64,000 nt of DNA from Natrialba swarupiae (GTDB lineage: Archaea > Halobacteriota > Halobacteria > Halobacteriales > Natrialbaceae). Every line of letters starts with the position of its first letter. Within the stretch, counting starts at the first letter, position 1. Below are positions 4,174 to 33,695 of the stretch, one piece after another. The notes under the pieces were generated by a model. The model searched no databases. It saw only the letters and a list, made by a program, of their open reading frames with translations, and was not told the origin of the DNA. The stretch lies in NCBI RefSeq assembly GCF_008245225.1, contig NZ_VTAW01000001.1, forward strand, positions 62,001 to 126,000, given 5' to 3'. Made by a program: the position numbers and the translations under genes.

Positions 4174-4278
4174 CCGCCTGGACGCCGCCGTCGCGATCGG
4201 CTACGTGGGTGGAGCGCCCATCGGTACCGACACCAGCTGGTGGAGATCCCACAGGAGGGACATCAGGCACGTGAACCG

Positions 4279-4300
4279 CCTCGGGGTCAAGCCCCGAGGC
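4279..4300. repeat. IS end hairpin next to the tnpB 3' end (RE side)
   Basis: This perfect stem-loop (CCTCGGGG, TCAAG, CCCCGAGG) lies 11 bases past the tnpB stop. In tnpB systems the guide RNA runs from the 3' part of tnpB through this end, with the guide taken from flanking DNA. The guide here would therefore lie just below position 4279 on the minus strand. That is inference from the family. Confidence 0.75.
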
Positions 4301-4310
4301 TTCCCGTGGT

Positions 4311-5585
4311 TTAGTCGGACACTCCCACGACACCATCGGTCTGATAACCTCGAACAGCGTCGTGGGTCACGGTCGGGGCGTCCACGGCCCCCGATGCCTG
4401 CCGTCGCACTTTCCGAACAACGGGAAGGCTGTTGAGAGCAGGCACATTCCAATCGAGTTTCTTCATACCTTTCACGGCGATATTGACGCTTGCACCTCGG
4501 TCGCTGTGGTCTTGATGACCACAGTCCCGACACTTGAACCGCTTCTTGTTGCGGTTCGCACGCTCCGTATGCCCACACATCGGACACCGCTGGCTGGTGT
4601 ATTCGGGATTAACCCACACGGTCGGAATGCCCTCAAACGACGCTTTGTACGCCGTATAGATCTGAAGGGCGCGGAACGGGATGTGGTGCAAACGTCGGTT
4701 CATCCGCGTGCCGTAGTCGATACTGTCGCGCATCTCTTTGAGGTCTTCAAAGACGATACACGGCTTCTCGAACTGACGGCTCCACTCTACGATATGTCGA
4801 GACACCTTGTGGAGTCTGTCGCGGACGAACCGTTCCTCACGCCCTTCCAGCGTGTCGTGGATGCTGTCTTTCCCCGCGTTCTGCACGCGCTTACGCATCG
4901 TGAAGTAGCGGTGGCGCTCGAATTTGATTTCGGGGAAGTCGATGACCAACGTATCTTCGACACCATCCGTTGAGAGTGCGGCCAACGCCACGTTATCCTC
5001 ATTCACGTCCACACCGACAACCGACCGCGAGCCCTGCTTGTCTCGAACGGTCTGTTCGGTGTTGGTGACGTTGACGTGCAACTCGGCGTTGTCGTTGTGG
5101 AACAAGGCTTCTGCCGTCCCAATCTTCCACTCGTCACTTTCGAGTGCAGTCTTGAGAATGTCGAGGTGGGCGTCACTCCCTTTGAGGACACCTTTGACGT
5201 GCTTGTACGGCTTCGCGCTGATGCGGAACGCCACGTCACCGTCGTCGGTGAGTGACAGGTTGTAGCCTTCCTCGTAGTTTGCACGAAGCGGGTACGCGCC
5301 GTTCTTGGTGTGACTGGGTTGGGCGAAGTCGTCGTACTCGTAGTAGTTCTCCATCGCACCGAGTGCCTTCGCAACGACACGCTGAGTCGTGTTCTTCACG
5401 AGGTTAGCGCCGCCGGCTACTCGGTCAGGAATGTCATCCCAGTCCACGCCTTGCTTGGCGAGGCGGATGGTTTCGTTGTACACCGACCGTGCTTCGAGCG
5501 TGGCGTCGTACAGCAGGCTCTCGTTGTCACTCTGGATGTTGAGTTGGAAGTCCAGCGTCTTGACGAGAGCCTGTGCGTCCGTCAT
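4311..5585 (-). CDS. tnpB: RNA-guided endonuclease TnpB (IS200/IS605 OrfB)
   Basis: At 424 residues this is full length. The split RuvC-like nuclease is intact: the first Asp is in VVGVDVNEDN (about residue 195), the Glu in IVFEDLKEMR (about 280), and the last Asp in SDRGASVNIA. A CPMCG...CRDCG zinc ribbon lies before the last Asp. TnpB proteins cut DNA guided by an RNA from the element's right end and help keep the element in place. The ATG overlaps the stop of a small upstream ORF (ATGA), so the two are translationally coupled. With tnpA disrupted, this copy may persist as a domesticated or dying nuclease. Confidence 0.93.
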   Translation of the reverse strand: MTDAQALVKTLDFQLNIQSDNESLLYDATLEARSVYNETIRLAKQGVDWDDIPDRVAGGANLVKNTTQRVVAKALGAMENYYEYDDFAQPSHTKNGAYPLRANYEEGYNLSLTDDGDVAFRISAKPYKHVKGVLKGSDAHLDILKTALESDEWKIGTAEALFHNDNAELHVNVTNTEQTVRDKQGSRSVVGVDVNEDNVALAALSTDGVEDTLVIDFPEIKFERHRYFTMRKRVQNAGKDSIHDTLEGREERFVRDRLHKVSRHIVEWSRQFEKPCIVFEDLKEMRDSIDYGTRMNRRLHHIPFRALQIYTAYKASFEGIPTVWVNPEYTSQRCPMCGHTERANRNKKRFKCRDCGHQDHSDRGASVNIAVKGMKKLDWNVPALNSLPVVRKVRRQASGAVDAPTVTHDAVRGYQTDGVVGVSD

Positions 5586-5725
5586 TCTTGGTCGTTAGGT
5601 TGGACGTGACGGTAGTGGAGGAGGAGCGTGCGGAGTACGCTATCGAAACTCGTGTGGCCCTCCTCGTCCTTGAGTTCGTCAAGCTCGTCGTACACGGCGT
5701 CGGATACCTTGAGTTGCTTCGTCAC
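5582..5725 (-). CDS. Small ribbon-helix-helix-like protein coupled to tnpB
   Basis: A 47-residue ORF (54 residues if started at the GTG at 5746) reads VTKQLKVSDAVYDELDELKD and ends in a helix-rich TSFDSVLRTLLLHYRH stretch. The beta strand plus two helices resemble antitoxin-like ribbon-helix-helix proteins. Its TGA overlaps the tnpB ATG in an ATGA junction. A TATA-like CTATTAAG near 5750-5758 places a leaderless start close to the GTG at 5725, which is why I prefer it. It may regulate tnpB expression. That role is inferred only from fold and position. Confidence 0.65.
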   Translation of the reverse strand: MTKQLKVSDAVYDELDELKDEEGHTSFDSVLRTLLLHYRHVQPNDQE

Positions 5726-5820
5726 GTCTACCCCTTGTTCTTCCACACTTAATAGTATACTGGTGGTAGTCTGTAAGTCGCTTCAAAGAATACTTTAGAT
5801 CAGTCGTTGTGTTGTCAGGT

Positions 5821-6270
5821 ATGGGCGAGAAGCGGTCAAACCACACGGTGTACAACGTCAACTACCACTTCGTGTGGTGTCCAAAGTCAAGCAAAGCGAA
5901 ACTTTGCGTACCTCGCGGGATCGAAGATCCCGCTTAGTACCGTCACGCGATTCTCGAACCAATCGAAGCTTCGCTGGAAACGAGTTTCCGCGACGTGTGC
6001 GACAAGTACGGCTACGAGATATTATCGCTCCACATCTCGCCCGACCATGTACACCTGTTCGTCTCCGCTCACCCGAAGCACTCACCGAGCGAGATCGTGC
6101 GAACAGTCAAGAGCATCACGGCGCGGGAGATGTGGGAACAGCACGAACCGTTCTTGGAAGACTACCTGTGGGGCGGTGGGTTCTGGGAAGAATCGTACTA
6201 CGTTGGGACGGCAGGCGATGTTTCGACCGACACGATTGACCAGTATATCGAGCGCACGGAACACGTTTAG
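5821..6270 (+). pseudogene. tnpA: IS200-type transposase TnpA interrupted by a 51-base insert
   Basis: The frame begins MGEKRSNHTVYNVNYHFVWC and after residue 22 (CPK) should continue YRHAIL. Instead, 51 bases (5887-5937) interpose 16 foreign codons and a TAG. The frame then resumes in phase at 5938 and runs to the end. Downstream parts are intact: the HUH motif in PDHVHLF, the catalytic Tyr in DTIDQYIE, and the normal C-terminus. TnpA is the single-strand Y1 transposase. A TATA-like ATACTTTAG lies about 28 bases before the ATG. Unless the insert is bypassed or spliced, the enzyme is not made. Confidence 0.85.
5887..5937 (+). repeat. 51-base double-hairpin cassette inside tnpA
   Basis: The insert consists almost wholly of two perfect stem-loops: GCAAAG-CGAAA-CTTTGC and GCGGGATC-GAA-GATCCCGC. 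It ends in an in-frame TAG. An AGT trinucleotide flanks it on both sides (5885-5887 and 5936-5938), so the exact ends are ambiguous by a few bases. Confidence 0.75.
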
Positions 6271-6289
6271 CGGGGCTTACGGCCTTCAC

Positions 6290-6311
6290 CCTCGGGGTCA
6301 AGCCCCGAGGC
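6290..6311. repeat. IS end hairpin next to the tnpA 3' end (LE side)
   Basis: This copy is identical in sequence and orientation to the hairpin at 4279-4300. It lies about 20 bases past the tnpA stop and marks the other end of the element. Confidence 0.75.
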
Positions 6312-6354
6312 ACTCGGCCTGCTCCGCCTGTAGACGAGACGGCTGATCGTCATA

Positions 6355-33320: not shown

Positions 33321-33695
33321 CCCCGGGATCGAGGGTCTTGGGGCTACCAGTGGTTGAGAACACAGTTATTTTATTCAGCAGAGTGGCTGCAACGATTGTT
33401 CGATACAGGCGAAGAAGTGTGCACTCACCGCGAGCGAACGACGTGAGCGAGCGGGCCGACGACCGACCCGAAGGGGAGGGAGGAGTGCTTTTTATCAACG
33501 TTTTGCCGAGTGCGGTCGCTCTGCGACCGCACGCAGAGCAAAAGGTTGGCACACGTAGTTATCGCACTGTATTCAATTACAGAAATACGGTGGAATGAAG
33601 AATTCGAACTGCTATGGTGAACTTCCAGCAATTCCTGGGCTATGTACCAAAGTCCATAGGATTATGGCGATGGAGCTAATAACATAGGATAGCGG
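33321..33695. other. Hairpin-containing intergenic stretch
   Basis: No gene is visible. The segment 33420-33545 contains short self-complementary words (GAGCGAACGACGTGAGCGAG), a T-rich CTTTTTATCAACGTTTTGCC stretch and a perfect 10-base-pair hairpin at 33510-33532 (GTGCGGTCGC, loop TCT, GCGACCGCAC). It marks the left edge of an accessory patch. Confidence 0.55.
33510..33532. repeat. Perfect 10-bp hairpin
   Basis: GTGCGGTCGC and GCGACCGCAC pair across the loop TCT, with T-rich sequence just upstream. It could be a terminator-like or mobile-element-derived structure. Confidence 0.6.

Follow-up and report, generated by a model that had tools for sequence, protein, structure and literature searches.

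The 51-nt insert that interrupts tnpA in the window (the whole 64-kb stretch of DNA that was analysed) belongs, with a probability of about 0.72, to a haloarchaeal family of small mobile double-hairpin repeats, which enter DNA seamlessly and with a preference for certain sites, would be moved by a Y1/HUH transposase and would serve as a temporary off-switch of tnpA. These small mobile repeats have spread via intergenic hairpin arrays and via IS605-type elements, in which they occupy tnpA, tnpB, the end hairpins and one another.

The interrupted gene belongs to an IS605-type element at 4271–6334 (right limit ~6334–6337), the limits being the positions at which homology to other copies stops and unrelated flanks begin. 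The element starts with GTGAACCGCCTCGGGG and terminates with CTGTAGA, and the same ends were found in many unrelated flanks. A hairpin scan placed the left-end hairpin at 4278–4300, and the scan together with a comparison of IS copies placed the right-end hairpin at 6290–6310. On the minus strand the element carries tnpB (4311–5585), an ORF of 424 aa of the RNA-guided endonuclease TnpB family (Pfam PF07282, E = 2.6e-18), whose start is overlapped by a small ORF (5582–5746, minus strand); ORFs at this position in related IS copies are annotated as hypothetical or as a DUF2080 family transposase-associated protein. At the 3' end of tnpB, positions 4261–4447 of the minus strand matched Rfam RF02657 (sot2652) with 36.8 bits, which is below the gathering threshold of 61; the matched region is probably the omega-RNA region of the IS605 element.

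The tnpA gene occupies 5821–6270 of the plus strand. Its first part (5821–5886) has 22 codons and ends in FVWCPK, and its second part (5938–6270) continues in an intact frame with the HUH and Tyr motifs; between them lies the insert, which we call a type I cassette (51 nt, 5887–5937). The translation of the gene reads MGEKRSNHTVYNVNYHFVWCPK, then SSKAKLCVPRGIEDPA with a stop codon from the cassette, and then YRHAILEP...RTEHV followed by the terminal stop. The cassette stop, an in-frame TAG at 5935–5937 that is CAG in open copies, ends the tnpA of the window after 38 codons. With the 51 nt removed the gene encodes a complete transposase of the Y1_Tnp family (Pfam PF01797, E = 4.6e-39), in agreement with the preliminary description, which had held the rest of TnpA to be undamaged, including its HUH and Tyr motifs. 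The cassette is missing in paralogues; one of these, which the window's own genome carries on contig C65, has no insert and reads ...FVWCPKYRHAVLEPI.... The preliminary description had also placed the insert exactly at the junction of CPK and YRH; these codons are indeed split, but the triplet AGT is common to both ends of the insert, so that four registers are possible for the 51 nt and the cut can be located only to within a few bases.

Translation and folding bore out the claim that the insert in this IS200-type tnpA consists of two hairpins and adds an in-frame TAG. Hairpin 1 (5891–5907, plus strand) has the form GCAAAG-CGAAA-CTTTGC, and in other copies both of its arms are changed jointly to GCAAATC/GATTTGC. 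It is followed by a GTAC linker (5908–5911), complementary to the GTAC that spans the right junction (5937–5940), and by hairpin 2 (5915–5933, GCGGGATC-GAA-GATCCCGC), the segment of the cassette that recurred most widely in genome searches. The insert with its short flanks (5880–5945) folds at -23.9 kcal/mol (z = -5.0), a stability reached by 0 of 200 shuffled sequences. No adjacent hairpin pairs with stems of at least 7 were found elsewhere in the 64-kb window, at a cut-off that also misses hairpin 1 with its stem of 6, and no Rfam family matched the cassette. A 10-bp hairpin at 33510–33532 of the window (GTGCGGTCGCTCTGCGACCGCAC) is identical to the hairpin beside the cassette in an intergenic array of another locus (L008).

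The cassette was present at the same tnpA codon beyond the genome of the window. The exact right-junction pattern was found in 6 of 391 genomes of the class, namely the window's own genome and five further ones, all from the family of the window, which named relatives place as Natrialbaceae, and one species had two copies; the cassette pattern occurred in 30 of the 391 haloarchaeal genomes. The suggestion of a tiny insertion held, but not as a one-off: the insert is a mobile double-hairpin element that occurs across the haloarchaea and has a fixed site in tnpA. A dead insertion private to one genome and of no wider meaning, with which the stop at an early codon of the window copy would agree, is refuted by the presence of the same insertion across other genera, families and subfamilies, and we assign it next to no probability.

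The core of the cassette (CTAAGCGGGATC-NNN-GATCCCGCGAGGT, with ≤3 mismatches allowed) was detected in 81 of 125 genomes of the family, mostly in intergenic hairpin arrays, whereas the control, the reversed pattern, gave zero matches. A search of the genome with the insert also located core copies outside tnpA, in intergenic hairpin arrays that start just past stop codons. A scan of GTDB contigs detected the type I cassette in 23 stretches from named organisms, and the copy on a plasmid of Natronorubrum daqingense was 93.8% identical to the window over 578 matched bases. Nearly all distinct contexts of the cassette were tnpA genes broken after WCPK or a closely similar motif; two contexts (L117 and L118) were tnpB, in which type I has the opposite orientation, and one (L130) was a tnpA fragment missing the second part. 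Three diverged TnpA subfamilies of haloarchaea (34–44% protein identity to the window protein) carry the same cassette at the same codon, and cassettes taken from diverged subfamilies can differ by only 1 nt. TAG is the last cassette codon in one subfamily and the fifth codon in another; other cassettes have CAG and are open.

Several further observations were made on the arrangement of these repeats. The tnpB gene of L118 apparently contains three or more double-hairpin cassettes, including a reversed type I. The haloarchaeal arrays (L008, L010, L016 and L017–L045), which are intergenic and lie downstream of genes, contain in this order GGAGGAGTGCTTTTCATCGAAG, variable tandem hairpin modules and, near a stop codon, TTTTACCGAG-hairpin-CAGAGTAAAAGTTCG. 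Cassette loops (e.g. in L132, L129, L140 and L134) come as reverse-complement pairs, GAA/TTC, GGA/TCC and AAA/TTT, as if flipped by inversion or by template switching between the arms.

All cassette types found were double hairpins, with a family length of about 49–66 nt. Type II (54 nt, TCGTCC...AACGA) is inserted between YEILS and LHIS, just ahead of the HUH motif, in tnpA genes of Natrinema, Haloferax larsenii and others, and occurs with or without TGA. Type III (54 nt, TGGTTCGA...TCGTCATCACGA...TCGAACGA) is inserted in tnpA between HPK and HAPSE, and was found in 30 of 61 genomes from several haloarchaeal families, with zero matches of the control. Its stems comprise ~20 different sequences and are 95–97% paired, compared with 77–80% in arm shuffles. 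Type III was also located in hairpins at the ends of IS copies, among them the loop of the right-end hairpin of L151, and within a type I cassette, where it is nested in hairpin 1. The copy in L151 (Salinadaptatus halalkaliphilus, 1031–2090) is 98.7% identical to the IS of the window and has lost most of tnpB; it carries type III in the loop of its right-end hairpin. A rule by which type III would target hairpin loops was rejected (7 of 32 sites, compared with 23% in controls). Some tnpA genes have two cassettes, and the Halalkalirubrum copies have an extra hairpin pair ahead of CPK. Similar hairpin pairs in other genes, for which the preliminary description had proposed to look, were found in tnpB and in a histidine-kinase gene (HisKA + HATPase_c), where a 66-nt type III element, in frame and open (L203, 1500–1566, reverse strand), adds ~22 residues to the ATPase domain.

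In-frame cassettes add 17–18 codons to tnpA. The statement that the insert keeps the frame is correct for the 51 nt of the window copy but does not describe the family, since subfamily 2b has, at the same codon, 49-nt cassettes and a 94-nt compound that put the gene out of frame; the gene beyond them is intact when they are read past. An in-frame design was ruled out by these versions; outside tnpA, 18 of 30 type III loci have an element length divisible by 3. The cassette could alternatively be a peptide tolerated in a surface loop, like the Rickettsia palindromic elements, its stops being read through or reflecting recent decay. Thirteen open copies (e.g. L094, L095, L116 and L059, annotated 150-aa tnpA CDS), the open 66-nt element in the histidine-kinase gene and the natural insertion domains at beta1:alphaA and beta3:alphaC of TnpA-Y1 proteins (PMC6006769) agree with a tolerated peptide, which taken alone fails to account for the TAG conserved at two positions in different subfamilies, for the TGA in type II and for the 49- and 94-nt frameshifters; as a full explanation we consider it improbable.

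Turnover of the cassettes was observed at the DNA level. The empty copy L172 and the filled copy L104, both from genome G117, have 4 codon differences and a seamless junction, GCCCGAAG^TACCGACAC, and in this genome the cassette-bearing copies L103 and L104 and the cassette-free copy L172 share the upstream IS sequence while their downstream flanks differ. Similarly, L079 and L112 differ at 4 of 132 codons, yet two whole cassettes differ between them, again seamlessly. No target site duplication was detected in either empty/filled pair. The subfamily-2b copies L167–L176 are cassette-free, which indicates that the cassette is not universal in 2b. On trees that were built on 370–390 columns and are poorly resolved, subfamily 2 required at least 7 changes of cassette state, and subfamily 1 at least 8 for type I and 10 for type II. 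Some of the analysed stretches are masked. The target preference was G^TACCG for type I, which corresponds to the codons of tnpA between CPK and YR and was also seen in tnpB, and N^C, usually G^C, for types II and III. We favour a mobile element acting at the DNA level because the presence and absence of the cassette were seen in DNA, because its sites include non-coding IS ends and arrays, and because it occurs in both orientations.

The tnpA genes that the cassette blocks by a stop or a frameshift are well preserved. No other lesion was found in 24 of 27 blocked copies, including those with the frame-shifting 49- and 94-nt cassettes. Other lesions were counted in 3/27 blocked and 16/52 free copies (Fisher p = 0.06), groups that we read as not different, the damaged cassette-bearing L113, L114 and L122 being filed as free; a greater decay of blocked than of free tnpA was looked for in these 27 and 52 copies and was not seen. 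Simple pairwise counts gave 13 synonymous and 4 non-synonymous differences between the stop-bearing copies of the window and N. daqingense (dN/dS 0.08), 20.5 to 3.5 between the stop-bearing L097 and L098 (dN/dS 0.04) and 23 to 10 between the frame-shifted L102 and L127 (dN/dS 0.10). The dN/dS of blocked copies was about 0.04–0.2 overall, and the binomial probabilities without selection were <1e-5 for the blocked pairs. The copies of the window, Salinadaptatus and N. daqingense all have the TAG cassette; among them there was no cassette-free copy and no decay was visible. From the intact blocked copies and the low dN/dS we conclude that the block is either short-lived and reversible or compatible with a working gene.

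Purifying selection on stopped and frame-shifted copies would equally be expected if tnpA functions while carrying the cassette. Removal of the cassette from tnpA mRNA as a mini-intron, or its skipping by the ribosome, would let blocked copies yield full TnpA, and both the intact frames past the cassette in 24 of the 27 blocked copies and the dN/dS of 0.08, 0.04 and 0.10 fit this explanation. We nevertheless consider it unlikely, since the same elements occur in non-coding IS ends, in arrays and on the antisense strand of tnpB, and since near-identical cassette-free copies indicate turnover of DNA. With turnover this fast, the preservation of blocked tnpA does not prove function; the selection may predate the insertion and date from cassette-free ancestors. 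Two specific forms were tried and rejected: a canonical BHB intron (two 3-nt bulges with a 4-bp helix between them) did not fit in any of the four registers by folding and hand check, and codon-matched ribosome hopping would have a mismatch between take-off (AAG/AAA) and landing (TAG/CAG) codons. In a broader form, blocked tnpA would be functional through precise removal of the cassette, either from RNA or from ssDNA in some of the polyploid copies, which would make the cassette a reversible genetic switch of a mini-intron-like or mini-excision kind; we regard this as possible, though doubtful.

For the DNA-level element that we favour, the likeliest mover would be a Y1/HUH transposase that works in trans on single-stranded DNA, since this chemistry is marked by hairpin pairs, the lack of duplication and precise loss. 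No transposase was linked to the cassettes, whose ends (TCAAGC/TNAG) are unlike the host IS ends. Within tnpA the cassette would be a temporary off-switch, reversed by precise loss, and since the block could be undone in this way the rest of tnpA would be kept under selection. Haloarchaea are polyploid, and precise loss might take place in only some of the many chromosome copies of a cell. Silencing of the transposase, one of the possibilities raised initially, is plausible where the cassette brings a stop or a frameshift, but some copies are open.

The cassettes read as closest to the SMR-A repeats and to the REP insertions in tnpA-REP genes. SMR-A of Haloquadratum walsbyi (~110 bp) inserts, without duplicating its target, into the palindromes at the ends of IS605 elements and PATEs; its mobilisation is described as unknown, and it was proposed to inactivate IS605-type transposons (Dyall-Smith 2011, PMC3119063). 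The cassettes are likewise transposase-free, lack target duplication, prefer IS605-type elements and, in the case of type III, enter near-terminal palindromes. SMR-A differs in its ~110 bp, its prominent terminal inverted repeats and its location mostly outside the transposase ORF, whereas the cassettes, compared by description, are double hairpins of 49–66 nt with variable stems that are found also at fixed tnpA codons and in tnpB; their terminal inverted repeats are short and imperfect in type III (TGGTTCGA/TCGAACGA) and absent in type I. REP sequences were reported within bacterial tnpA-REP genes (TnpA-Y1 subclass 2.4), where they leave the frame undisrupted, and only subclass 1.1 of TnpA-Y1 was seen in archaea (PMC6006769, 2018). 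Both cases concern small palindromic repeats inside Y1 transposase genes, but the former involves bacterial RAYT-type proteins and the latter archaeal IS200 tnpA, often with stops or frameshifts. REPs linked to RAYT have a GTAG or CGTC tag at the foot of the palindrome; the linker of type III reads TCGTCATCA, and type I is without a GTAG foot. Because they fit neither the size of SMR-A nor the frame rule of tnpA-REP, the cassettes stand apart within the small mobile palindromic repeats.

Rickettsia palindromic elements and CGTC-tagged REPs (PMC3733652) are, like the cassettes, short and palindromic, some of them intragenic, with no dedicated transposase, and a CGTC motif lies between the two hairpins of type III. 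In contrast to the Rickettsia elements, the cassettes are haloarchaeal, have other sequences, invade IS605 elements and are in frame only in a subset. PATEs (PMC3119063) are also small and palindromic, lack target duplication and go down to 52 bp, and the cassette might be a terminal-only remnant of an IS605 element resembling the 52-bp terminal-only PATEs of Haloquadratum in size and hairpins. PATEs have near-terminal palindromes in common with IS605 elements, while the cassettes are unlike the ends of their host IS, the only IS ends compared in this respect; they have two different hairpins with linkers of their own, and their stems vary freely. Among the IS605-type elements met in this work none had ends matching both cassette ends, and we regard a PATE remnant as very improbable.

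The results describe very small mobile hairpin pairs, a family spread across the haloarchaea whose members home to fixed codons in the transposases of IS605 elements. Many haloarchaeal tnpA genes called pseudogenes may carry just one such cassette, and the good preservation of blocked tnpA is a concrete puzzle. The near-identical filled and empty copies make both an SMR-type movement and an action against IS605 elements directly testable.
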